DNA of 64,000 nucleotides from Bacteroidaceae bacterium (GTDB taxonomy: Bacteria; Bacteroidota; Bacteroidia; Bacteroidales; Bacteroidaceae). The position numbers and the translations under genes were made by a program. This document shows, in pieces, positions 44,544 to 57,157 of the stretch. The stretch's first letter is position 1. Each line of letters opens with the position of its first letter. The stretch is taken from assembly GCA_024401215.1 (NCBI GenBank), contig JAKSLL010000005.1, positions 30,387-94,386 on the forward strand, given 5' to 3'. Below the pieces are notes generated by a model that saw nothing but the letters and a program-made list of their open reading frames with translations, was not told the DNA's origin and did not search any database.

Positions 44544-44819
44544 TCAGTACACTCTTTGAGCATTTTTAAAGTCTTCATCAGGACTTTCATGGAAAGAGTC
44601 CAGATTGATGTAGTACATGAGCACAATTCTCACCATTGTTGCCAATCCATAGAAGCTCCACCTGCGATTCAGACTCTGTTGCTGCAGTGTCATGAGCAAA
44701 TTAGCAATCAAGGTGGTCCAAATTTGTATCTTGATAGCATTGCTGCTCTTGCCGTAGAAGTATCTGAGAGAGAAATTCTGCTTGATCTGCTTGAATAGCG
44801 ACTCTATCTGCCATCTGCG
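44544..44819 (-). pseudogene. IS4-type DDE transposase, C-terminal remnant
   Basis: The minus strand encodes 91 residues without a start: RRWQIESLFKQIKQNFSLRY, then FYGKSSNAIKIQIWTTLIAN, ending at a TGA (forward 44544-44546). This is the conserved end of IS4-family transposases, including the YREK-like region glutamate in QIESLFK. The rest of the gene and both IS ends are absent. At its truncated 5' side the sequence passes directly into kinase relic D. Confidence 0.85.
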
Positions 44820-44824
44820 TCTGT

Positions 44825-44855
44825 GGAGGGTGGAGTTGGGCTATAGGTGTTGCAT
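44825..44855 (-). repeat. Kinase gene 5'-end relic D
   Basis: On the minus strand ATGCAACACCTATAGCCCAA continues to CTCCACCCTCC, matching the first 31 bases of the kinase gene that starts at 48592 with two changes. The fifth codon is TAG, so nothing is encoded. Confidence 0.75.
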
Positions 44856-44882
44856 ATTTTTTTCAGAATGATATTCAGTTAA

Positions 44883-45575
44883 TTATTTGCAAATGCTTTT
44901 GAAAATGTCTAATATAATATCAGATCTATCCTCTTCACCGTAAGGCATTGCGCATTCTATCTCTTCCATAATGTTGGGACGTTTACAGAACGACATAAAT
45001 GCTTCAGTCACAAAATTTTTCAGTTCTTTATTCCCTTCTTTATTATATCTTTCGGTGAAGTCTGGACAATAGTTCAGTATGTAAACGACATCCTCAAAAT
45101 CTTTTGATCCTCTCAAATCTATTCCTCCACGCAAAGTTATTGCTTCAAGTTTCGATGCCACAAAATATAAGGCAGACATTATGTAAACGATTCGTCCGTT
45201 GGGAAGGGTGAAAGACACCCTATTTTTTATGCCAGGTTTGTACCACCTATTGGTAAAACCAAGATACTTTTCATCAGTAGGCATTATGTCAACCTCCTCA
45301 CCTTTGTAAAGCCATCTGCATATAACAGTTCCATCTTCTTTGTCTTCCTCAAAATGTTTCTTGCGAAGCATTTCTTCAAACTCCATCTTTTCCTTGAAAG
45401 AAAAGTATTCAACAACACAATCCACATCCATAGTTGGTCTTGGCTCCGTGGCAGCACTATCTGTTGCATACAATTGAGTTACAGAACCTCCAACGTATGT
45501 TACCTTTTCATTAAGATCCTCTAGTCCATCAGCTACATGTTGCAGTCTTTCTATATTACTTTTCTCCATAAGCAT
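44883..45575 (-). CDS. Nucleotidyltransferase-type toxin candidate (AbiEii-like)
   Basis: The 230-residue protein has the nucleotidyltransferase signature GGSVTQLYATD followed by TMDVDCVVEYF with the D-x-D metal pair (about residues 27-53), then SALYFVASKLEAITLRGGID, a helix common to AbiEii/MenT-like proteins. AbiEii toxins modify tRNA or other targets with nucleotides. The upstream gene overlaps by 20 bp and encodes a winged-helix protein, the layout of AbiE-type toxin-antitoxin pairs. Assignment to AbiEii proper is inferred from layout and motif, not from close similarity. Confidence 0.72.
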   Translation of the reverse strand: MLMEKSNIERLQHVADGLEDLNEKVTYVGGSVTQLYATDSAATEPRPTMDVDCVVEYFSFKEKMEFEEMLRKKHFEEDKEDGTVICRWLYKGEEVDIMPTDEKYLGFTNRWYKPGIKNRVSFTLPNGRIVYIMSALYFVASKLEAITLRGGIDLRGSKDFEDVVYILNYCPDFTERYNKEGNKELKNFVTEAFMSFCKRPNIMEEIECAMPYGEEDRSDIILDIFKSICK

Positions 45576-46086
45576 TCAAGAATTTATCAAGTTCTGCAAT
45601 AGCAACTTCTCGTTCTCTTACTCTACCCATACGCAGGGTGTCGATAATGGCAAGCAGTTTGTACAATTCATCATCTTGTCCCACTGCTTCTGGTACAGAA
45701 CTATACAGAGGTTCAATCGACTGTCCGCGCAAGGTTCCTTTTTTATAGGGCCAAACAAAAATCTCACTTCCTCCATTTATTGCTTCCTTAATAGGCGATG
45801 CAGAAACCGCAGTGGGAACTCCTCGTACTATCGCTCCAGGCTGAGCAGGAAAGACATACCTCAATCCATACACAAGGAAGTCTTTCAGCGCAAGCACTTG
45901 AACACGCTTCTTTGACACATCAACAAGACTTGCAATTCTGCACCTCTCCAATGCCTCGGAGATTTCAGAGGCGCTAATTCCAAGAGATACCGCCAAATCC
46001 TTGTTCAGCATATCCACGCCTTCGCTTGTTATCTTTTTCAAGAGTACCACTATGTCCTGTGGTCTCATTCCATTATGTTTTGCCAT
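45556..46086 (-). CDS. Winged-helix antitoxin/repressor candidate
   Basis: The 176-residue protein begins with a helix-turn-helix region (LNKDLAVSLGISASEISEAL, about residues 28-47). A middle segment reads YGLRYVFPAQPGAIVRGVPT, which I have seen in proteins paired with nucleotidyltransferases. It ends with a helical part. It overlaps the toxin candidate by 20 bp. A near-perfect palindrome sits 14 bp before its start over the promoter, as expected if the protein represses its own transcription. Confidence 0.68.
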   Translation of the reverse strand: MAKHNGMRPQDIVVLLKKITSEGVDMLNKDLAVSLGISASEISEALERCRIASLVDVSKKRVQVLALKDFLVYGLRYVFPAQPGAIVRGVPTAVSASPIKEAINGGSEIFVWPYKKGTLRGQSIEPLYSSVPEAVGQDDELYKLLAIIDTLRMGRVREREVAIAELDKFLNAYGEK

Positions 46087-46100
46087 ATACTCATATTGAT

Positions 46101-46148
46101 TTGCGATTCGCGAATTGCAAATTTAGGGCATAAATGACTAATATGCAA
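46101..46148 (-). promoter_or_regulatory. Promoter and palindromic operator of the nucleotidyltransferase module
   Basis: On the minus strand TTG (forward caa 46146-46148) and TAAATTTG (forward 46118-46125) are 20 bp apart. Directly downstream and overlapping the box is the palindrome ttgcgattcgcgaattgcaa (46101-46120), with one mismatch pair. The overlap fits autoregulation. Confidence 0.65.
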
Positions 46149-46244
46149 ATATTTTTAGATATACATAGTACTTTATTCTTGAAATTCATTGAATATTATC
46201 AATTGATCATCAAAACATACAATAGAAGAGCATTTTTTGTATGA

Positions 46245-46334
46245 TTATTTATAATATTTCCCACCTTGTCCGAGCACTTTCTCTGTTTTGTATTTACCAC
46301 TTTGGAGAGTGGAGTTGGGTTGTAGGTGTTGCAT
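46245..46334 (-). pseudogene. Kinase gene 5'-end relic C
   Basis: The minus strand starts MQHLQPNSTLQSGKYKTEKV and continues LGQGG before diverging to KYYK and a stop. The first 25 residues match the kinase at 48592 with three changes. The break occurs inside the glycine-rich loop. It lies between the nucleotidyltransferase module and higB. Confidence 0.8.
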
Positions 46335-46391
46335 TGACTATTAGTTTTCCTTAAAGGTCGTATAAAGATTCACTTGTTTATGAAATTTATG

Positions 46392-46432
46392 TCCACAAAA
46401 TTTGTGGAATTGTGAGATTGTGTATAACTTTG
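46392..46432 (+). promoter_or_regulatory. Promoter and palindromic operator of higBA
   Basis: TTG at 46402-46404 and TAACTTTG at 46425-46432 are 20 bp apart. A perfect palindrome, tccacaaaatttgtgga (46392-46408), covers the -33 element and is a good candidate HigA operator. Confidence 0.7.
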
Positions 46433-46451
46433 TTCTCAAATTTTCACAAAT

Positions 46452-46769
46452 ATGATAGTAGTATTTACTCAAGAATATCTTCAAGAGCTCTACGAATCAG
46501 GACAAGCGAGTGATAAAAAGCACCGCTTCCAACCACAGGTTGTGAAGAAATATGCAAAAGTCATTAACACCTTGAAGAGTGAAAGTGACGTAAACGGGCT
46601 CAACAAATACGGCTCTTTACATTACGAGCATCTTCATGGTGAAAAAGAGGGCATATCATCCGTCCGGGTAAATGATCAATACCGGATTGAGTTCACAGAA
46701 GATACCACAGGGGATAGCACCGTCGCAAACATTTGCAATATAATTGAATTGTCTAATCATTATAAATAA
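46452..46769 (+). CDS. higB: HigB-like RelE-fold toxin
   Basis: The 105-residue protein has the HigB layout: toxin gene first, then antitoxin. HYEHLHGEKEGISSVRVNDQ followed by YRIEFTED is the conserved core of HigB mRNA-cleaving toxins, with the basic and aromatic residues on the last strands. HigB cuts mRNA in the ribosome. higA follows 11 bp downstream. The pair is flanked by kinase 5'-end relics C and B. Confidence 0.86.
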   Translation: MIVVFTQEYLQELYESGQASDKKHRFQPQVVKKYAKVINTLKSESDVNGLNKYGSLHYEHLHGEKEGISSVRVNDQYRIEFTEDTTGDSTVANICNIIELSNHYK

Positions 46770-46780
46770 TATATATATAT

Positions 46781-47125
46781 ATGATACATTTAGAAGGAGT
46801 TAATCCTAATATGATAGCCAACAATCTTACCCCATTCTACGTGACACACCCCGGCGAGGTCTTGAAGGATGAGGTGGAGTGTCGTGGAATCTCCCAACGT
46901 GCATTAGCCGATCAGATAGGGATGTCGTACAAGGCACTTAACGAAATCCTCAATGAGCGTCGCCCTGTCACAATTGAGACTGCCATGCTCTTCGAAGCTG
47001 CCCTCGGCATTAGCGCAAAGACTCTCCTCAATCTTCAGATGGAATACAACATGTCACAGGTGCGCCGTAACAAGACTTTTCTCGACCGCCTGTCGTCTAT
47101 CAGAAAGATCGCTGCGGTACTATAA
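46781..47125 (+). CDS. higA: HigA-like antitoxin
   Basis: The 114-residue protein has the HigA core PFYVTHPGEVLKDEVECRGI and a helix-turn-helix of the XRE type (SQRALADQIGMSYKALNEIL). It neutralises HigB and should repress the promoter at 46392-46432. An alternative start at 46811 (MIANNLTP) is preceded at 11 bp by aaggag; the longer form was kept because the N-terminal MIHLEGVNPNMIANNL pattern is common in related antitoxins. Confidence 0.88.
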   Translation: MIHLEGVNPNMIANNLTPFYVTHPGEVLKDEVECRGISQRALADQIGMSYKALNEILNERRPVTIETAMLFEAALGISAKTLLNLQMEYNMSQVRRNKTFLDRLSSIRKIAAVL

Positions 47126-47195
47126 AGTCAAATCAAGTCAACTATCTTCAACAGAAGTAATGTATTGTTACATACATTCTGTTCACTCAATTAGC

Positions 47196-47306
47196 TTAGT
47201 ATAAGTGCTCTGCAAGGTTGGTTATTCCGAACCCACCTTGTCCGAGCACTTTCTCTATTTTGTATTTACCACCTTGAAGGGTGGAATTAGGTTGTAGGTG
47301 TTGCAT
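47196..47306 (-). pseudogene. Kinase gene 5'-end relic B
   Basis: The minus strand encodes 36 residues, MQHLQPNSTLQGGKYKIEKV then LGQGGFGITNLAEHLY and a stop. The first 33 match the kinase at 48592 with two changes and include the whole glycine-rich loop. The DNA is also highly similar from 47205 to 47306. It lies immediately downstream of higA. Confidence 0.85.
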
Positions 47307-47386
47307 AGATAATTATTGGGTTAAAGAGAATCACGATGCAAGTCTTAATACTTCTTTTTGATGACGTGTTTCTTCGTCCAACACAT

Positions 47387-48592
47387 CTATTTGCATATGA
47401 AGAGTAATAGTAGTATAATTATCATACACCCAAATAGGACTATTCGATTTATCTTTTCATTTCTTTTTTTATTACGTATCTTTTTTTCAATAAACTTTCG
47501 CTCCTTTTCTTCAATCAGATTTGCAACCTTTTCCAACTCTCTTTCCCTGTTCATTTCTTCACGAACTTTTCGCTCCGCTTCTGCTTTTGCACGAGCTTCC
47601 GCCTCTGCTTTTTCTTTTGCAGCCTTGGCTTCTGTCTCTTTGCGTTTTCGTTCCTCTTCTGCATGTTGCATTTCTGGAGTATAGAGAGTAGCTTCGTCAT
47701 CACTATTTACCACAGATGCAGAGCCATTGAGATTGGAGATGAACTCTTCAACGCTATGGGTGCGCTTACGCTTTGACTGCATTGCTGCATCAAGGGCATT
47801 GATGATATTCTGTGATATGTTCTTTGCCTTGAGTTCCTCGGTTGGTAATCCTTCGTCTTGAATGAGCATTGCCTCTGGTGGAGTATTACCAGTAAGCAAT
47901 TTGAATAGTGTTGCTGCGAGGGCATAGACATCGCTTTGAGGAGAGAAAGACTGAACACCTCCGAGCATATACTGCTCGTTAGGTGAATAGCCCTTGCTTA
48001 TTCCTACAGGCGTGGTGGTAGTACCCTCAGATGTTGTAGAATCGTACTGCTTGGCAACGCCGAAGTCGATAACGAAAATCTGTCCATCCTCTTGGCGCTT
48101 CATGATGTTGCCAGGCTTGATGTCGAGATGGTTCATGTTCTTGCTGTGGATGTACGAGAGAGCATCAGCTACATTCTTGATGTATCCAACGGATTCTGCC
48201 TCTGGTATGAATCCACGACGCTTCACCATATCGCTTAGCGACTCACCTTCGATATAGTCCATCACATAATAGGCAGTTCCATTCTCCTCAAAGATGTCAA
48301 GGATACGCACTATGTTTGGATGGTTCAACTTGAATATGGTACGAGCCTCTTTGATAAACTTCACTTTGAAGCGCTCAACAATCTCACGATTACCACTTGT
48401 TCCGATTGTCACATGACTCGTCGCCTCGTCACGGTCACAATACTCCTTGAAGAAAAACTCCTTGATGGCTACCTTGCCATCAAGCATAGTGTTCTCCGCA
48501 AGGTAGGTTATTCCGAACCCACCTTGTCCGAGCACTTTCTTTATTTTGTATTTACCACCTTGAAGGGTGGAGTTGGGTTGTAGGTGTTGCAT
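47387..48592 (-). CDS. Membrane-anchored Ser/Thr protein kinase 1
   Basis: The kinase domain (residues about 15-270) is complete: glycine-rich loop LGQGGFGITYLA (21-32), Lys44 in VAIKEFF, catalytic HLDIKPGN (155-162) and DFG (176-178). A charged coiled coil of E, R, K and A follows (about 300-375), then one C-terminal membrane helix (IVLFGCMIIILLLLFIC). HLD in place of HRD and GYSPNEQY in the activation segment are typical of bacterial kinases in Bacteroidetes. It is the last gene of the signalling cluster. Three truncated copies of its 5' end lie downstream. Confidence 0.92.
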   Translation of the reverse strand: MQHLQPNSTLQGGKYKIKKVLGQGGFGITYLAENTMLDGKVAIKEFFFKEYCDRDEATSHVTIGTSGNREIVERFKVKFIKEARTIFKLNHPNIVRILDIFEENGTAYYVMDYIEGESLSDMVKRRGFIPEAESVGYIKNVADALSYIHSKNMNHLDIKPGNIMKRQEDGQIFVIDFGVAKQYDSTTSEGTTTTPVGISKGYSPNEQYMLGGVQSFSPQSDVYALAATLFKLLTGNTPPEAMLIQDEGLPTEELKAKNISQNIINALDAAMQSKRKRTHSVEEFISNLNGSASVVNSDDEATLYTPEMQHAEEERKRKETEAKAAKEKAEAEARAKAEAERKVREEMNRERELEKVANLIEEKERKFIEKKIRNKKRNEKINRIVLFGCMIIILLLLFICK

Positions 48593-50088: not shown

Positions 50089-50904
50089 TCATTTGTTGAT
50101 TTTAGGAGTTTTTGTTCTAATTATTGGAACTTCATCATGTTCATAACCGCATTTAGCGAGCCACGTTTCAAGTGTATCCCGAGTCTTCATGATGTCAGAT
50201 ATATCGTGCTGAAATAGCGTGATACCTCTTAGACATTTTGAATCGAAAGTTAACTCTCGATATATTCTTGTCTTACCATTGTTAACCTTGAACTTAACTT
50301 CTGAAACAAAGTTGTTGCTATCTGCCAGAAGAGATTCTCGCTGATTACCATTTGTTAAATCAAAATCTTCAAAATAAGATAAGCGCCATTCATTTTCTAT
50401 CGCATAGTTAGGATGCTTCAAGAACGAACATTTTGCCTTTGCTTCGAAATTTAAGTCTTCACGTTCTCCTGTCAAACGAAAAACATGCTCGTAGGCATTG
50501 GTAACAAAAGAAGTTGTCTGCGATTCTGTCAAATATAATACATCCCCACCTTTGATTTTATCAGATTTTTCCACAGATTCTTGCAATAACATATCTGAAT
50601 CTATATGTAGAACGACTTCTGCGTTGTACAATCTACGCATGGAAAAATCATCGTTCTTTTTACAGAAAGATAATACGTAGGGTCTGCAGTTATAGTCATC
50701 CATGTCAATAAAATCAACACCATTATTTTCTAAGACCTCTTGTGCGACAGCAAAACCATATCCAGAGTCAAATGGATCTTCCATATTATCATAACGACTC
50801 GCATGGAATTTTAATCCATCATTATTAATGATGTTCAATGCTGCAATTAATGAAGTATAGTGATATACAATACCGCATGACATTCCATTATCAAATACTT
50901 TCAT
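50089..50904 (-). CDS. DUF2971 family protein
   Basis: The 271-residue protein contains IVYHYTSLIAALNIINNDGL and HASRYDNMEDPFDSGYGFAV, the N-terminal signature of DUF2971, and AIENEWRLSYFEDFDL, a conserved central motif. DUF2971 proteins are frequent in bacterial accessory islands and have no proven activity. No membrane helix is visible. It overlaps the upstream kinase 2 gene by 4 bp, so its expression is coupled to the kinase. Confidence 0.82.
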   Translation of the reverse strand: MKVFDNGMSCGIVYHYTSLIAALNIINNDGLKFHASRYDNMEDPFDSGYGFAVAQEVLENNGVDFIDMDDYNCRPYVLSFCKKNDDFSMRRLYNAEVVLHIDSDMLLQESVEKSDKIKGGDVLYLTESQTTSFVTNAYEHVFRLTGEREDLNFEAKAKCSFLKHPNYAIENEWRLSYFEDFDLTNGNQRESLLADSNNFVSEVKFKVNNGKTRIYRELTFDSKCLRGITLFQHDISDIMKTRDTLETWLAKCGYEHDEVPIIRTKTPKINK

Positions 50905-52445
50905 CTTAATAGTTTTTTAATGTTACCATTTTTATCATATTCTGTGCCTTCGAATGGCACTCCATCTTTCATTTTGCCAACAAAGTAGGTCCCATCAGTG
51001 CGGGTCAATGTACCTTCAGAATAATAATCGTCTGCAAAACTTCCAACAAAAGTTGCTCCTCCTTTCTCGGTGAATTTACCATCGGCTCCATGCATAAGAC
51101 CATTTTTATAAGGACCAATGTATCTGCCAAACGAATAGACTCCTTCACCTATTCCGTTAGGCAAGCCATCAATTACCTCACCTGTATAAGTATAAGTTTC
51201 GCCTGTTGAGTCCTTGAATTTCTGATTAACCACACGATTGCCATTGATGTTCTCAATTGTTTCAAACTTACTTGCAGCAGAAGAAGCAAAATGATAAATT
51301 GCGAAAATTGCTATTATGGCAAATATTAAAAGAAACAGTTTAACACCAAACCTTTTCTTCTTCTTAACAGGTGGAACTGGTGGAGTAGGAGGGACTGGTG
51401 GAGTAGGAGGGACTGGTGGAGTAGGTGGAACTGGTGGAATAGGTGGAGGAGTTTTCCTATTGCCTCCACCTAAAACCAAAGTGTTGTCATTTTGATCATT
51501 TTCTTTCTTAGCTTTTGTTCCGTCACCTCCTGTTCTTAATGTGCATGATTGAGGGATTGTAGAGAGAAAATCCTTCACGGTTTGCGTGCGTTTATTCACA
51601 TTAGGCAACATCGCTTTTACAACAACATCTATGATATTGCCAGAAATACCAAAAGAATGAAGTTTTCTTGCTATGAGCTCATCATCACTAACGATGTCGG
51701 ACGCTGCAGGAGGTGTTTCACGAGTGAGAAGCTTATATAATGTTGAGCCGAGTGCATACACATCAATAGTTGGACGGAATTCTCCGCTCTTTGCTTGATT
51801 GCTCTGCTCAATTGGAGCATAACCAGGTGTGCCAAGACCTATGGTTGTTGATGTTTCTGGCTGACCATTGCTGCTATAGTGCTTTGAAAGACCGAAGTCT
51901 ATGAGGAAGATGTGACCATCGCTTGCACGGCGCATAATGTTGCCAGGCTTCAAGTCAAGATGTAGGATGTGCTTCTCATCGTGCATATACACTAGAGCTT
52001 TGGACACAGATATAATAATGTCCAAAGCTTCATTTTGTGATAGAGATGTATGCTTGATATAGTCGTTAAGGTTCTCTCCCTCAATATAATCCATCACATA
52101 ATAGTATGTGCCGTTCTCTTCAAAAGAGTCTGTCACACGCACAATGTTAGGATGGTCAAGTTGAGAAAGATTCATTGCCTCTTTTTTGAACTTCTGACCG
52201 TAGTTGTACGAGAGGCTTCCATCACTCATGCCAGAAATACTACCATCATCTCCACGAGTGTTTAGCTCTTTCATGAAGAACTCCTTTATGGCGACCTTAT
52301 GTCCAAGGCTTGTATGTTCGGCAAGATATGTTATGCCGAAGCTTCCTTGACCGAGGAATGTTTCATTGTGCTGCGGTATTATTTCCGAAGCATTTAGTAT
52401 TCTATATGTTCCTCCGCGAAGGAGTGTTCCTGTTTTCAGTTGCAT
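50901..52445 (-). CDS. Membrane Ser/Thr protein kinase 2 with proline linker and MORN repeats
   Basis: The 514-residue protein has a complete kinase domain (LGQGSFGITYLAEH 31-44, Lys54, LHLDLKPGNIM, IDFGLSKHY, GTPGYAPIEQ). After it comes a proline-rich tract of PPVPPT units (about 325-350), a KKKKRFG cluster and one membrane helix (about 358-378). The C-terminal 120 residues hold MORN-like repeats (YTYTGEVIDGLPNGIGEGVY, then GRYIGPYKNGLMHGADG). If the kinase is cytoplasmic, the MORN part lies outside and could sense a ligand or the cell wall. It follows the PP2C gene by 4 bp. Confidence 0.92.
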   Translation of the reverse strand: MQLKTGTLLRGGTYRILNASEIIPQHNETFLGQGSFGITYLAEHTSLGHKVAIKEFFMKELNTRGDDGSISGMSDGSLSYNYGQKFKKEAMNLSQLDHPNIVRVTDSFEENGTYYYVMDYIEGENLNDYIKHTSLSQNEALDIIISVSKALVYMHDEKHILHLDLKPGNIMRRASDGHIFLIDFGLSKHYSSNGQPETSTTIGLGTPGYAPIEQSNQAKSGEFRPTIDVYALGSTLYKLLTRETPPAASDIVSDDELIARKLHSFGISGNIIDVVVKAMLPNVNKRTQTVKDFLSTIPQSCTLRTGGDGTKAKKENDQNDNTLVLGGGNRKTPPPIPPVPPTPPVPPTPPVPPTPPVPPVKKKKRFGVKLFLLIFAIIAIFAIYHFASSAASKFETIENINGNRVVNQKFKDSTGETYTYTGEVIDGLPNGIGEGVYSFGRYIGPYKNGLMHGADGKFTEKGGATFVGSFADDYYSEGTLTRTDGTYFVGKMKDGVPFEGTEYDKNGNIKKLLR

Positions 52446-52449
52446 AGAT

Positions 52450-53712
52450 TCATTGTTTTGATGTTTCTTGTTCTTTGTCCTTATTATCTACTCTTTTCTT
52501 AGTAGGAATAAACTTAGATGCATGAGATTTAGAGTTGTGAGATTCAGAAGTATTTGAGTTTTCTGTTTCTTCATTTTTGATTTCTTCTTCATTTGTTGTC
52601 GAAGGAGCATTCTCCTCTACTGCGGTTTTCTTTGTATCGGCATTATCATCAATAGTTTTTTGAGAACTTTCTTTTGTTGATTCCGAAGTAATAATAACAT
52701 CCTCTTTCTGTTCTGCTTTAATAGAATCAGAATCATTTACTTCTACTGTAGTGTCAGATGGTCGAATGGAGAAATAATAGTAAGCACCTCCTGCGATAGC
52801 AAGAATAAGTAGGACTATTATTGCATAAATAGGAAGTTTGCTTTTCTTTGGTGCTTCCTCCTCAGGATAAATCCAAGTACCCTGATTTTTTTCTGGAGAA
52901 GAAGGGTTGTGGGCAATGATCTGATCTTCTTTCTTTAGGACATCATTCACTTCCTTTATATATATAAGATGTGCAGTGTGGTTGTCCTTATTGTCAGCAG
53001 TAACTTCTCGAAGCATTTCCACTTTCTGCTCATTGGTCGTGTTCTCTTTGGTTATGATGTAAAGAAGGTTCTCGTCAGAGGTTTGCTCCAGCATACCATC
53101 AGAACACATGTAGAAGTAATCGCCTGGCTGAATATCAGTAATGTGAGCTATGTCAGCTTTGCTTCTGCGCTCTTGACATGGCTGCATGGCACGGGTGATG
53201 ACGTTCTTCTGTGGATGATTTTTTGCTTCTTCCTCAGTTATTTCTCCTATCTTTATGAGGTCATTGACAAGAGAGTGGTCACGTGTGCGGAAGACAACGC
53301 GAGCTGGCTCGTCTCCCTTTGTTGGTCGCAACTGATACACACGGCTATCACCTATATGGGCAACAGTTGCACCTTCGCTGTGGAAACAGAGGAAGGTCAT
53401 GGTTGTGCCCATCTTTTTTGCTTCTCCATTATCCTTTGTATCGAGAGCGTCGTATGCCTCTTCAATGGCTTGTAGAAGTAAGTCATCTGATAGTGGCTCG
53501 TTTGTGTTCCAGCGTGATAAGATCGTTTGACTCATCACTTCGCATACTGTTGCAGAAGCAACCTCGCCCTTTTCGTGACCGCCCATGCCATCGCAAAGGA
53601 TGAAGATACGATCTTCTGCTGTGGATTTCTCATAGTTTGGGAATATAGAATCTTCCTGATTCTGACGCTGTCCCAGTTCTTGAATTGAATATGTTAGTAA
53701 TTTGTATTTCAT
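52450..53712 (-). CDS. Membrane PP2C-type Ser/Thr phosphatase
   Basis: The catalytic domain (about residues 5-255) has the PP2C metal motifs RQNQEDSIF, FILCDGMGGHEKGE, AHIGDSRVYQLR and FYMCSDGMLEQ. DNHTAHLIYI replaces the usual DNxTxxxV. One membrane helix (about 295-315) is followed by an acidic Ser/Glu/Thr-rich tail. The enzyme would reverse the action of the two kinases. The orientation places the catalytic domain in the cytoplasm. Its 3' end abuts kinase 2, and its 5' end carries a palindromic element. Confidence 0.93.
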   Translation of the reverse strand: MKYKLLTYSIQELGQRQNQEDSIFPNYEKSTAEDRIFILCDGMGGHEKGEVASATVCEVMSQTILSRWNTNEPLSDDLLLQAIEEAYDALDTKDNGEAKKMGTTMTFLCFHSEGATVAHIGDSRVYQLRPTKGDEPARVVFRTRDHSLVNDLIKIGEITEEEAKNHPQKNVITRAMQPCQERRSKADIAHITDIQPGDYFYMCSDGMLEQTSDENLLYIITKENTTNEQKVEMLREVTADNKDNHTAHLIYIKEVNDVLKKEDQIIAHNPSSPEKNQGTWIYPEEEAPKKSKLPIYAIIVLLILAIAGGAYYYFSIRPSDTTVEVNDSDSIKAEQKEDVIITSESTKESSQKTIDDNADTKKTAVEENAPSTTNEEEIKNEETENSNTSESHNSKSHASKFIPTKKRVDNKDKEQETSKQ

Positions 53713-53716
53713 AGGT

Positions 53717-53836
53717 GCCCCCTCCTTACTCCCCCAAGGGGGAGAGATTTGTCCACTGAGGGGAAGTGGATTTTATATTACTAATTTAAAAGCTTATCTG
53801 GTGGGATCCCCCCCCTTGGGGGAGTTAGAGGGGGCG
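53717..53836. mobile_element. GC-rich inverted-repeat element overlapping the FHA gene stop
   Basis: Inverted ends of about 26 bp pair gccccctccttactccccca plus aggggg on the left with cccccttgggggagttagag plus ggggcg on the right; the arms differ at two or three positions. The 120-bp element lies between two genes of one operon, and its right end supplies the last codons (RPL) and the TAA stop of the FHA gene at 53825. Confidence 0.8.
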
Positions 53837-54388
53837 CTTGAAAGTTAATTCAGTGTAACCAATTTTTATGCGGTCACCGTTGTTGAGGATGAGCTGGTCA
53901 TTTGTCTCAATAAGTGTGCCGTTGAGATACGATGGGTTCTTGCCTGCACCATTGCGAAGAATATGAAGTGTTTGTCCACCTACGTTCTTAACTTCTATGA
54001 TTGCGTGGCTTCTGCTCATGTAACGGTCTTCCACATTTATCTGTACTGATGCACTTGACGTAGTTGCTTTTCTGCCTATAGTATTTACGCCAAAACTTAG
54101 ATTATAAGTTCTCCCAAAGTTATCAACTAGCACTCCTGTATTTGGTTGTGATGGTGACGCCCCAACAAATTGCGTTTCTTCCCCATTTGAGACAGAAGAA
54201 GAGAAACCATATTGTGTTTCTTCATTAGCAATAGTCTGTTTGGGAGCATCAACAATTCTTTGGCACTCACCAACCTTGTGTTTTTCCTTACACACAGGAC
54301 AAGTAAACACTGCGTTGTTTATATTAGGATTGTCTGAAAGAATAAGTATCTTTCCGCACTTAGGACATTTAATCTTTATTTCTGCCAT
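53825..54388 (-). CDS. FHA-domain protein with N-terminal zinc ribbon
   Basis: Residues 1-45 carry two CxxC pairs (IKCPKCGKIL and FTCPVCKEKH), a zinc ribbon. Residues about 95-187 form an FHA domain (VNTIGRKATTSSASVQINVE, YMSRSHAIIEV, NGDRIKIGYTELTF), which binds phosphothreonine. A low-complexity linker separates the two. It would read threonine marks set by the neighbouring kinases. Its last codons fall within the inverted-repeat element. Confidence 0.9.
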   Translation of the reverse strand: MAEIKIKCPKCGKILILSDNPNINNAVFTCPVCKEKHKVGECQRIVDAPKQTIANEETQYGFSSSVSNGEETQFVGASPSQPNTGVLVDNFGRTYNLSFGVNTIGRKATTSSASVQINVEDRYMSRSHAIIEVKNVGGQTLHILRNGAGKNPSYLNGTLIETNDQLILNNGDRIKIGYTELTFKRPL

Positions 54389-54459
54389 GAATCCATTTAT
54401 AATTTATTCATTTACAATTACTATTTTAGTTCAAACAATCGGTGGGGAGGGTAAGTCAT

Positions 54460-55185
54460 CTACCACCTCATCACAGCCATATTATCAGGGAACTTGCCCC
54501 ACATGACAGGATGTTGCTTGTCGTTAGATTCTTTCTTAACCTTAGCGCTGACATAGTTGAACAACTCTTTTGCGGTGATAGTGCGATCCTTGTTCTTATC
54601 TGCCCCTCCACGAAGACCATGCTGTAGGGCGTATGTGAAGAATCCGTTTGTCATCTTTGGCGTCTCGATGCTCATCTCGTTGCTGCGGCATGACAGGAAG
54701 AGCATGATGTTATTACTCATAGAGTTGTATTTTGATGACACTTGCGCTCCATCTCTTATTGCTCCTGAGAAGCAAGCGTCAGCAAATACCATCTTATTCT
54801 TGCTCTTGCATGCAGACATTGACGCACTTACATCGCCGTAACTCAAGAATCCATCATAGCATACGAATCCGCCCTTCACCCCATGCCCGCTGAAAAACAG
54901 CACTACAATGTCATCAGCTGTTGCTTGACCAAACATCTTCTTCATCGCATCCTTCACATTGGCAATAGTGGCTTTCTTGTTCATAAGCAGAATGGTAGAT
55001 GCTTGTTTATTCTCTCGATACAACCATTGCATTGTGGCTGCATCGTTATGTGGAAGGCGAAGGTCATTTTTTGTGCCTGGATAGTCGGACACTCCAACAG
55101 AAACGAGATAAATCTTTGCCTCTGCTATGATAGAGGAAAAAATCATCATCATAAGCAGAAGCAAAGGCTTTAATTTGTTATGCAT
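54460..55185 (-). CDS. Caspase-like (C14) cysteine protease
   Basis: The start at 55185 gives a signal-like N-terminus (HNKLKPLLLLMMMIFSSIIA) and overlaps the upstream stop by 8 bp; an adjacent ATG at 55188 is equivalent. The caspase fold shows AKIYLVSVGVSDYPGTKNDL, the catalytic His in LFFSGHGVKGG and the catalytic Cys in VFADACFSGAIRDG. Secreted caspase-like proteins (metacaspase/orthocaspase type) cut after basic residues. Near the end, GGADKNKDRTITAKELFNYV resembles a calcium-binding loop. It could be an effector controlled by the phospho-signalling genes around it. Confidence 0.88.
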   Translation of the reverse strand: MHNKLKPLLLLMMMIFSSIIAEAKIYLVSVGVSDYPGTKNDLRLPHNDAATMQWLYRENKQASTILLMNKKATIANVKDAMKKMFGQATADDIVVLFFSGHGVKGGFVCYDGFLSYGDVSASMSACKSKNKMVFADACFSGAIRDGAQVSSKYNSMSNNIMLFLSCRSNEMSIETPKMTNGFFTYALQHGLRGGADKNKDRTITAKELFNYVSAKVKKESNDKQHPVMWGKFPDNMAVMRW

Positions 55186-55909
55186 CATAATAAGTGTCAG
55201 CGTCGTTGTTATAGTCAGTTTCATCACTTGCTTCATAAGCAAATGTGTCCTGCTGATCTACTTCTTCTTGTTGTGCAAGGTATGCCTGTTCATATTGCTC
55301 CATACCTATGTGCTGTTCAGAAATATCGTAGATTTCACCTTCATCAAATTGCTGGTTGTGGTCGTGATCTATACCTATAACATCTGCAATTCCATCACCG
55401 TCAGCATCAAGGACGGCAGCGATTTCATCACCATCGGTCAATATAGCCAGTTCTTGATGTGCCCCTCCATCTTCAGTTCGCTCATATACACCAAGAATCT
55501 GCACTTCAGGAACTTCCTCATTACTTGTCTGTACAGAATGAGGTTCTGGTTCTTCTTGAGGCTGTACGATTGGATCTGCACCATTGTTGCCAGAGTAATC
55601 TGGTTCTTCAGGGTTGACTAATACTTCTTCTTTTGTTTCTTGTACAGATGCTGGCCTTACCTCTGCTACAACTTCTTCCTGTGTTTCCTCAGCAGAATCT
55701 TCTTGCTCATCTGCATTCAACATGGTTGCAGCAGCTGCCGATGCTGCTCCACCAGCTGCTCCTCCGAATACTCCAGCTGCGACTGTTGCAGCAACTCGCT
55801 TGCCGTTGTTTTCCTTCTTTTCTGACTTTGGTGCTTCTTCTTTCTTTGTGGTTTCTGTAGCCTTGTTTGCAGTCTGTGGCTGCATGATGATTGTCTCTTC
55901 GTTATTCAT
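55178..55909 (-). CDS. Acidic protein with glycine-rich hydrophobic segment and EF-hand-like loop
   Basis: I cannot assign this 243-residue protein to a named family. A lysine/glutamate-rich N-terminus is followed by a small-residue hydrophobic segment (AAGVFGGAAGGAASAAAA, about residues 41-58) that could span or insert in a membrane as a glycine zipper. Then comes a strongly acidic E/Q/P-rich region. Around residue 170, VLDADGDGIADVIGIDHDHN has a D-x-D-x-D calcium-loop pattern. It overlaps the caspase-like gene by 8 bp and has its own promoter. Confidence 0.7.
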   Translation of the reverse strand: MNNEETIIMQPQTANKATETTKKEEAPKSEKKENNGKRVAATVAAGVFGGAAGGAASAAAATMLNADEQEDSAEETQEEVVAEVRPASVQETKEEVLVNPEEPDYSGNNGADPIVQPQEEPEPHSVQTSNEEVPEVQILGVYERTEDGGAHQELAILTDGDEIAAVLDADGDGIADVIGIDHDHNQQFDEGEIYDISEQHIGMEQYEQAYLAQQEEVDQQDTFAYEASDETDYNNDADTYYDA

Positions 55910-55949
55910 GATTTTATGGTATTAAGTTTGACATTTTTGTTAACTGGTA

Positions 55950-55980
55950 CAAAAGTATGGTGCTTGCGTCTGATGACCAA
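55950..55980 (-). promoter_or_regulatory. Bacteroidetes-type promoter inside the signalling cluster
   Basis: On the minus strand TTG (forward caa 55978-55980) and TACTTTTG (forward caaaagta 55950-55957) are 20 bp apart. The leader to the EF-hand-like gene is about 40 nt. It suggests the cluster is read in at least two units. Confidence 0.7.
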
Positions 55981-56027
55981 ATTTCCCATGCTATGTTGTA
56001 GGAAATGGTGGGATTAGTCCACGAAAT

Positions 56028-56756
56028 TCAATGTGTGTATTTGCAACCGCATGCAGAGCACTGCTTGTTGAATTCTATCGAACGATATGGTACAGAACCA
56101 AATGGTTTGCCGCATGCAGGATTTGGACATTTATATTTGGTCGCAAATTCTTCATCAAGATCATGTATTTTTCGCTGTACTGTATCGGTGTTTTTGCCTT
56201 TCATGAAAAAGTATATTGACATAATTAATGCTGTAACAACACATATCGCACGGAAAACAATAGGTATAGGCAAGAGGCCTAATGCCATGCCAAACATTGA
56301 AACAATGCCTTGAACTCGTTGCTGGTTGCCTTTTTTGGCTGCATCATCCTGAATTGCAAGTTTGCGCTTATCATATTCATCCCATATTGTTTGCAGAGGT
56401 TCTAGCGTGAACGTAGGAGGCTCAGGCTTCTTTTCACTACTATTTGCAGAAGCTATCGGTTTTCCTGTTGCCAATTGCAGAATCTGCAGCAAAGGAACAT
56501 TAAATTTTTCCGAGCCAAGCTGAACCTTGCTTGTCGATGAAATGCCTTTTGAGAATACTTGATTGCCATCCACGTATGTTATATTCTGTTCGCGTAGATT
56601 TTCAATTGACATTTTCTCACCCAGAACCACAATCCTGCAATGCTTGCGGCTAACTGATGTTGGCACACTTCCTGCTGCGCCTATATTGAATTCGCGTCCG
56701 TCTGCAATGCAATGAAGACGACGCGCTCCTTCTTCTCGTCCTATAATGATTTCCAT
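56028..56756 (-). CDS. FHA-like protein with membrane helices and C-terminal zinc ribbon
   Basis: The first 90 residues form an FHA-like domain (IIIGREEGARRLHC, VSRKHCRIVVLGEKMSIENL, TYVDGNQVF). The middle carries two membrane helices (about 155-200: GIVSMFGMALGLLPIPIVF and ICVVTALIMSIYFFMKG). The C-terminus has a four-cysteine zinc ribbon (YKCPNPACGKPFG and QCSACGCKYTH). Domain order is the reverse of the other FHA/zinc-ribbon protein at 53825. It follows the LytTR gene by 5 bp. Confidence 0.85.
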   Translation of the reverse strand: MEIIIGREEGARRLHCIADGREFNIGAAGSVPTSVSRKHCRIVVLGEKMSIENLREQNITYVDGNQVFSKGISSTSKVQLGSEKFNVPLLQILQLATGKPIASANSSEKKPEPPTFTLEPLQTIWDEYDKRKLAIQDDAAKKGNQQRVQGIVSMFGMALGLLPIPIVFRAICVVTALIMSIYFFMKGKNTDTVQRKIHDLDEEFATKYKCPNPACGKPFGSVPYRSIEFNKQCSACGCKYTH

Positions 56757-56761
56757 TTTTA

Positions 56762-57157
56762 TTAGTTGTTATTGTTGAGTTTTTTGCTGTTAGCATGCTG
56801 TATCATCAAATCCTTTAGTTGGCGTAAGGCTACTTTAGACACACCTAACTGAAAAGCAAAATGTACCCCATCAGTTACAGTAATGAACTGACGTAGCACA
56901 TTTATATGATAGATGAAATTGACGTTTATGATAAAACGTTTACCTATTCTGATAAACATGGATGCACGTTCTTTCAAACTTTCAGATATGAAGCGTTGCA
57001 TTTCAGACAGGTTCATGCATACAGACGCTTTGAGCTTGTTTACAAGTACAATATTAGTGTAATTGCCATCACCTTCCATGTAAACAATCTTAGAACAGTC
57101 AAAGCGATGAAGTTCATCACGTGTATTTATATAAAGGTAGTCAGTAGCTGTAGCCAT
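56762..57157 (-). CDS. LytTR-type DNA-binding regulator
   Basis: The 131-residue protein is a LytTR DNA-binding domain with almost nothing else. It shows KIVYMEGDGNYTNIVLVNKL, FIRIGKRFIINVNFIYHINV and the tail VSKVALRQLKDLM. No receiver domain is present, so it is not a standard response regulator. As the first gene of the cluster it may regulate the genes downstream. Confidence 0.88.
   Translation of the reverse strand: MATATDYLYINTRDELHRFDCSKIVYMEGDGNYTNIVLVNKLKASVCMNLSEMQRFISESLKERASMFIRIGKRFIINVNFIYHINVLRQFITVTDGVHFAFQLGVSKVALRQLKDLMIQHANSKKLNNNN

Follow-up and report, generated by a model that had tools for sequence, protein, structure and literature searches.

Repeated kinase gene starts as candidate recombination anchors between toxin-antitoxin modules in a Bacteroidaceae genome

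Integrons hold arrays of small cassettes, often of toxin-antitoxin (TA) type, which are separated by repeats able to form hairpins. In silent pilin and antigen cassettes a conserved block anchors the exchange of variable downstream parts by gene conversion among paralogues, and integrative elements at the 5' end of a gene bring an integrase with them and restore that gene, with a duplicate start left upstream of it. For the orphan cassettes of Rhs genes, the section of a Salmonella study drawn on here describes fragments downstream of the main gene and on the same strand, which share 522 bp with it at 95% identity, and a shared stretch that lets homologous recombination switch the cargo (PMC3967940). 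Here, we analyze a 64,000-nucleotide (nt) stretch of a Bacteroidaceae genome (assembly GCA_024401215.1, contig JAKSLL010000005.1; hereafter the window), in which the start of a serine/threonine kinase gene recurs around two modules, the toxin-antitoxin pair higBA and a nucleotidyltransferase-type gene pair. The first ~100 nt of the kinase gene, from the ATG to about codon 33, are called the header, and a header copy without a kinase is called a stub; the window is denoted G000:C180, G000 being its own assembly.

We favor, with a probability of roughly 0.63, the reading that homologous recombination between common kinase headers exchanges header-bounded cassettes in a kinase/defence island, the relics being headers with non-kinase cargo. 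The ~100-nt 5' header common to the island kinases would serve as the homology, and crossovers and gene conversion between headers would swap whatever lies up to the next header, be it the body of a kinase or a small TA or defence module. The window array would accordingly be read as header plus kinase, header plus higBA, header plus M21AB (the nucleotidyltransferase-type pair) and header plus transposase fragment. RecA-type homologous recombination would be the agent, a hairpin encoded in the header may help by breaking or stalling the DNA, and TA cargo could persist since its loss is costly. Header recombination appears most likely because it explains the homogenization of headers, the discordance of headers and bodies, the edges of the cassettes and the absence of truncations of intermediate length.

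Header copies in the window and the question of decay

The first-pass annotation had claimed that the kinase start is repeated three times downstream on the same strand. This was confirmed by copies of 102 nt (stub B), 75 nt (stub C) and 32 nt (stub D) and by a whole-genome search of G000, which recovered them with E-values of 2.5e-41, 5.7e-26 and 3.4e-6, respectively, and at the same threshold revealed no other copy. The three header copies are real and lie far beyond chance. Their order and orientation were as described, i.e. stub D, nucleotidyltransferase module, stub C, higBA, stub B and kinase. With distance from the kinase the copies were said to become shorter and more diverged; they do become shorter, but a clearly greater divergence was not found (94, 93 and 91% identity). 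Stub C is 97.3% identical to a kinase of the sister genome G002. A profile search of G000 added a further copy, weaker and decayed, on a different contig (G000:C154:14417-14481, E 2e-4), which sits behind a VWA-type gene and before a 3' remnant of higA and thereby repeats the order of stub B and higA. All stubs with a recognizable start begin at the ATG, and the sequence upstream is unrelated. As the order stub B-higBA-stub C is also present in the second assembly G002, an assembly artefact is unlikely. The idea that the stubs encode a conserved peptide was dropped, several of them containing early stops.

Such an array could also have arisen by ordinary decay, in which tandem kinases are cut by insertions and deletions and TA modules land among them by chance. 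Tandem kinase arrays are indeed common in this family, and stub D runs on into a transposase-like fragment. Furthermore, a stub of another kinase type in G114 follows a kinase whose body has its closest relative, at 87% amino-acid (aa) identity, in G002, and this relative is followed by a full kinase of the stub's type. The lengths of the truncated copies, however, speak against decay. In the loci fetched, the kinase N-terminus was found in 116 reading frames, 8 of which run off the locus. Among the 108 measurable frames 15 are shorter than 100 aa (two of the short ones pass 50 aa only through read-on into neighbouring sequence) and 93 are at least 350 aa long, with not a single frame of 100-349 aa. 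Behind the 19 stubs that were examined no kinase body was detected by tblastn (E 0.01, within 1,500 nt or to the locus end). The measurable stub ends, 18 in number as L047 3702 gave no alignment, all lie within 125 nt of the ATG, and the decay of a tandem kinase array that had been put forward as an origin was not borne out by truncations confined to this stretch and lacking any remnant of the body. Neutral relics, moreover, should not hold a header identity of 93-97% next to flanks that are unrelated from the ATG on. Decay is already disfavoured by these observations, and we consider it unlikely.

Homogenized headers and probable exchange between loci

In G095, which belongs to another genus, five tandem kinases share their first 76-106 nt at 93-98% DNA identity; beyond this shared start they are related at the ordinary paralogue level, save one recently duplicated pair. 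The same pattern was quantified for 92 kinases of 32 genomes, a pair being counted if the silent codon identity of the headers was at least 0.7 (homogenized) and the bodies were under 75% identical in aa (diverged). Pairs with closer bodies (14 within and 24 between genomes) and pairs with too few silent codons (88 between genomes) were set aside. Homogenized headers on diverged bodies were present in 17 of 104 pairs within genomes versus 23 of 3,956 between genomes. For the 17 pairs the nucleotide identity amounts to 0.75-0.94 over codons 0-31, 0.57-0.60 over codons 32-39 and 0.54-0.79 in later codon bins, and in 15 of them it is 0.23-0.44 over the 36 nt upstream of the ATG. The high header identity reflects selection, since the pairs were picked for it, whereas the sharp edge at codon 32 does not.

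Headers and bodies also differ in their nearest relatives. For the 88 kinases accompanied by a sister within their genome the nearest header lies in the own genome in 47 cases and the nearest body in 34, and the discordant kinases comprise 18 with an own header and a foreign body versus 5 with the reverse. The window kinase has its nearest body in G056 (80% aa, header silent identity 0.42) and its nearest header in a G002 kinase (silent identity 0.90, bodies 56% aa).

Comparison with G002 shows how the contents between the headers vary. The unit stub B-higBA-stub C is 83% identical on the DNA level between the window and G002:C80, where only 18 nt of stub C remain and the sequence beyond them is unrelated to the window. 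Upstream of stub B the two genomes are unrelated as well, the window having its 401-aa kinase and G002 a different one, and the front of the array is occupied by AbiGi and other kinases in G002 and by DUF2971 and a SUMF1-type gene in the window. The adjoining island, comprising the end of PP2C and the first kinase, is 81% identical. Thus the cargo differs from one header to the next within an island that is retained.

A second comparison involves G126 and two loci of G141. The G126 island resembles G141:C4 (72% over 3.7 kb) up to a point some 25 nt ahead of a kinase start, beyond which it matches G141:C19, with 95% identity in the kinase domain, 83% with gaps in the C-terminal part of the kinase and 98% in M21AB. 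Inside the next header G126 turns to G141:C4 instead: about 700 nt with a stub and a small gene show 96-100% identity (95% over 945 nt), in islands that otherwise share about 70%, and the identity then drops towards that level. The right switch falls within 32 nt (ATG-6 to +26) common to G126, G141:C19 and G141:C4, and the header concerned starts a full kinase in G141:C19 and a stub in G126 and G141:C4. Judged from these alignments, G126 is a mosaic in which two close segments, one shared with each of the two G141 loci, meet within a header. Comparing loci with and without a module at precise junctions, as had been proposed, thus places this switch inside the header. The first-pass annotation had further reasoned that simple gene decay would explain the pattern if relatives carry full kinases at the relic positions and the modules are unrelated to the junctions. 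The former was found: behind the same M21AB and the same 3-nt spacer a full kinase is located in G141:C19 and a stub in G126:C31, and a full kinase can therefore occupy a relic position. The latter was not, because M21AB ends at the junction. Repeated recombination at the kinase start, as suggested in the same annotation, is supported by the homogenized first ~100 nt, the discordance of headers and bodies and the one switch in G126.

Stubs in other genomes and the header hairpin

Related genomes, which had been proposed as a place to look for the header next to other cargo, brought the stubs examined to 19 in eight genomes of four genera, 13 of them in the window's genus and 6 elsewhere. A DNA search within this genus matched 5 of 45 genomes, with stubs in G000, G001 and G002, while the sequence fetched from G019 and G039 contained kinases only. 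A profile scan with the kinase N-terminus, covering 56 loci including the window, added stubs in G114, G126, G141, G233 and G391, i.e. in three further genera; 119 of 123 profile hits were kept, and four stub candidates with E above 0.05 were left out. Four of the 19 stubs (stub D, G002 12524, L047 3702 and L102) were added by hand, being absent from the scan list. According to neighbouring open reading frames (ORFs) read by eye, 14 of the 19 adjoin a TA- or defence-like module or remnant, a count that falls to 11 when AAA_14/DUF4143 and AlbA_2 genes are excluded. As a rough background, at least 11 of 68 non-kinase genes that directly follow a full kinase look TA- or defence-like on a Pfam basis of 25 of 94 families listed (M21A 3, HTH_3 2, AAA_14 2, DUF2971 2, AlbA_2 1 and DUF3037 1, five of them stub-linked themselves), or about 19 of 68 with every other PADLOC match counted; the stub and background counts are not independent and their classes were set by eye.

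In the window a HigB-like toxin and a HigA antitoxin lie in tandem, as is the case for the type II toxin-antitoxin system HigBA. In all four loci in which a following stub begins next to a higBA unit or remnant (window, G002:C80, G002:C28 and G001:C209), higBA points away from the stub. Three of the four M21AB pairs found end just before a header, with a gap of 27 nt in the window and of 3 nt (TAT) in both G126 and G141:C19. In G233 (L131:639-4691) a kinase is followed by a stub, an AlbA_2/Schlafen-type gene, a second stub whose start is lost and an Lcl_C-type gene. This order corresponds to the alternation seen in the window and occurs in another genus.

Several observations weigh against header recombination or limit its reach. 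Only one clean mosaic, that of G126, was found; its left edge is weaker because the start codon is where kinase alignments begin in any case, and the segment common to G126 and G141:C4 has no header at its far end. Just 2 of 15 ends of high-identity alignments between islands fall in header zones, both from G126, a set (10 alignments) too small to inform. The M21AB of G385 has no header behind it, the common sequence, in places down to 32 nt, is short for RecA, and many of the assemblies compared are fragmented. Some stubs in G001 and G002 are located near apparent housekeeping genes (by eye), and the G001 assembly, which is 88% complete, contains no full kinase with this header. Consequently, a dispersal beyond tandem recombination is needed. 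Header recombination alone explains neither the housekeeping-adjacent stubs nor the first joint between a stub and a TA module, which would be an illegitimate joint.

With respect to dispersal, blastn of the stub DNA against phage and plasmid records gave no match, nor did one exact 23-base stub pattern in IMG/VR; a phage or plasmid vehicle is therefore without support here. In an empty-site search at one remote stub locus the homology to G000 stops about 940 nt before the stub, an AbiEi-like upstream remnant (by eye) and a higBA remnant lying in between, and at a second remote locus no clean empty site was found. The repeat upstream of the remote stubs L043 and L047 turned out to be a distinct one (L043:444-560, L047:1459-1568), intergenic and dispersed and with a terminator-like hairpin, pieces of which occur elsewhere in G000, G001 and G002. 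A weak header-like fragment was observed inside an inverted repeat (AAGTCAAATCCAC ... GTGGATTTGACAT) between two G002 island genes (L042:7290-7360).

Alternatively, another element of REP/Y1-transposase or insertion-sequence type might mobilize TA modules just upstream of kinase starts, the stubs being by-products. The motif AGGGACAGGT outnumbers its reversed control (42 versus 16 in five genomes), four of the five GGGACAGGT sites in 922 kb of fetched sequence, from loci chosen stub-rich, have a stub no more than about 600 nt away, and a Y1 transposase gene of G391 has such motifs nearby. The motif is, however, absent from the window, several of its copies are in coding DNA among the matches listed, and five Y1 matches of G000-G002 are without GGGACAGG in their ~3-kb loci. 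We regard this origin as very improbable. Four of the five occurrences of GGGACAGGT are near stubs or TA modules (L042:12610, L045:4801, L047:3230 and L137:8829), and GGGACAGGT/AGGGACAGGT may be a REP-like end of TA modules.

The second half of the header, encoding GQGGFGITYLA, can fold into a hairpin. According to DNA folding, it is near-perfect in stub B (z -6.7), its G002 ortholog (-8.3) and a G233 stub (-8.0), and the kinases of these three fold more weakly (-4.8, -5.4 and -1.3, respectively). These differences, together with 11 of the 18 measurable stub ends lying inside the hairpin stretch (nt 58-108), would suit a dedicated recombination site, in which a recombinase acts on the folded single strand, as integrases do on attC hairpins, and moves header-bounded cassettes. 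Kinase headers also fold more strongly in stub-bearing genomes (7 versus 25 genomes, p 0.0007 for the best and 0.007 for the mean fold; 8 versus 24, p 0.007 and 0.009, with G001 moved to the stub-bearing group), these groups having been set after the ranking was seen. Over 91 kinases, however, the hairpin exceeds synonymous shuffles only slightly, its mean z of -0.76 comparing with +0.49 in the first window of the gene and with values from -0.20 to -0.58 in six later ones. The G126 switch precedes the hairpin, the homogenization covers the whole ~100 nt, and no recombinase family was present among the ten region proteins scanned. A dedicated site is in our view quite unlikely. The hairpin may mark a stretch that is fragile or recombinogenic, act in a terminator-like way or be due to chance. 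Fold-back copying was considered as the origin of the perfect hairpins; the native kinase, however, continues with a similar arm.

A bolder extension would regard the kinase headers as a dedicated cassette platform of the Bacteroidaceae, i.e. a coding stretch of ~100 nt doubling as a hairpin recombination site that reloads the kinase/caspase island, with free headers elsewhere as docking sites. We mention it tentatively and consider it rather doubtful; if it were true, the genome would keep loading new kinases, toxin-antitoxin and phage-defence modules into a regulated island.

The kinase island and comparison with known systems

The features of the window are compiled in Table 1. On the minus strand the island runs from LytTR via FHA, a 243-aa protein, a caspase-like protein, FHA, PP2C and the first kinase to DUF2971, which is followed by a SUMF1-type protein, a 139-aa protein and the 401-aa kinase. 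Downstream of the latter and on the same strand come stub B, higBA (on the opposite strand), stub C, PDC-M21A/B, stub D and the 3' fragment of a transposase-like frame. Islands of the type LytTR-FHA-caspase-FHA-PP2C-tandem kinase were encountered repeatedly across several of the genera fetched, and the island kinase was matched in 68 of 399 family genomes (E 1e-20). The PADLOC models PD-T4-6 and mad6 match the kinases, which may reflect the kinase domain alone. Within the window's assembly G000:C163 and G000:C34 are 98% identical over 1,956 bp and different beyond, which suggests a strain mixture.

Table 1 Features of the kinase island and the header copies in the window (positions of the 64,000-nt stretch).
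Feature	Position	Strand	Evidence or remark
Ser/Thr kinase, full length, header A at its start	47387..48592	-	401 aa; ORF and Pfam Pkinase E 7e-40
Header A, reference copy, first ~102 nt of the kinase	48491..48592	-	sequence comparison
Stub B, header copy	47205..47306	-	94.1% over 102 nt; open 36 codons
Near-perfect hairpin, 3' end of stub B	47203..47251	-	DNA fold z -6.7
higA antitoxin, convergent with stub B	46781..47125	+	NCBIfam TIGR02607 E 7e-19; Pfam HTH_3
higB toxin, RelE type	46452..46769	+	Pfam PF05015 (HigB-like toxin) E 4e-9; start 117 nt from the stub C ATG
Stub C, header copy	46260..46334	-	93.3% over 75 nt; open 29 codons
PDC-M21A, first gene of nucleotidyltransferase-type pair	45556..46086	-	PADLOC E 4e-48
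PDC-M21B, second gene of the pair	44883..45575	-	PADLOC E 7e-50; stop codon ends 27 nt before stub D
Stub D, header copy	44824..44855	-	90.6% over 32 nt; stop at codon 5
Transposase-like frame, 3' fragment fused to stub D	44544..44825	-	identity by eye
Remainder of kinase island: second kinase, PP2C, FHA, caspase-like, 243-aa protein, FHA, LytTR	50901..57157	-	

A conserved gene start acting as a recombination anchor would offer a testable route by which defence and toxin-antitoxin genes enter a signalling island and turn over in it, and would account for the truncated kinase starts that stand between unrelated modules in several genera. Headers could furthermore serve as a sequence handle for finding unknown defence modules in gut Bacteroidaceae. 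A literature search on kinase/PP2C/caspase/FHA clusters in Bacteroidales, truncated copies at TA modules and gene conversion in kinase arrays, restricted to open-licence papers, found nothing relevant.

With integrons the locus has in common that TA-type cassettes lie between hairpin-capable repeats. The kinase repeat, however, is the start of a protein-coding gene and is homogenized rather than cassette-specific, and Pfam revealed no integrase family among the ten region proteins, the rest of the genome not having been scanned for IntI. The conserved anchor resembles that of silent pilin and antigen cassettes, whereas here no known antigen is involved and the cargo switches protein families. 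Unlike the duplicate starts left by integrative elements, the relics of the window are located downstream of the kinase, and between the stubs no recombinase was found, the four main ORFs being HigB, HigA and PDC-M21A/B (smaller ORFs were not scanned).

The likeness is closest to Rhs and contact-dependent inhibition (CDI) loci, as stubs B, C and D share a stretch with the main gene and lie downstream of it on the same strand. The main gene of the window is a Pkinase protein, not an Rhs or CdiA protein with a C-terminal toxin. Rhs/CDI fragments, in the section of the source drawn on, combine a portion of the conserved N-terminal region with the C-terminal toxin of the gene itself, whereas the kinase copies comprise ~100 nt at the very start and their cargo includes complete unrelated operons in either orientation. 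As for new fusions by recombination in the common stretch, by which Rhs loci are recognized, header/body discordance and one mosaic were seen. By this analogy the kinase-header architecture appears to work like the Rhs orphan cassettes without being a member of that system.

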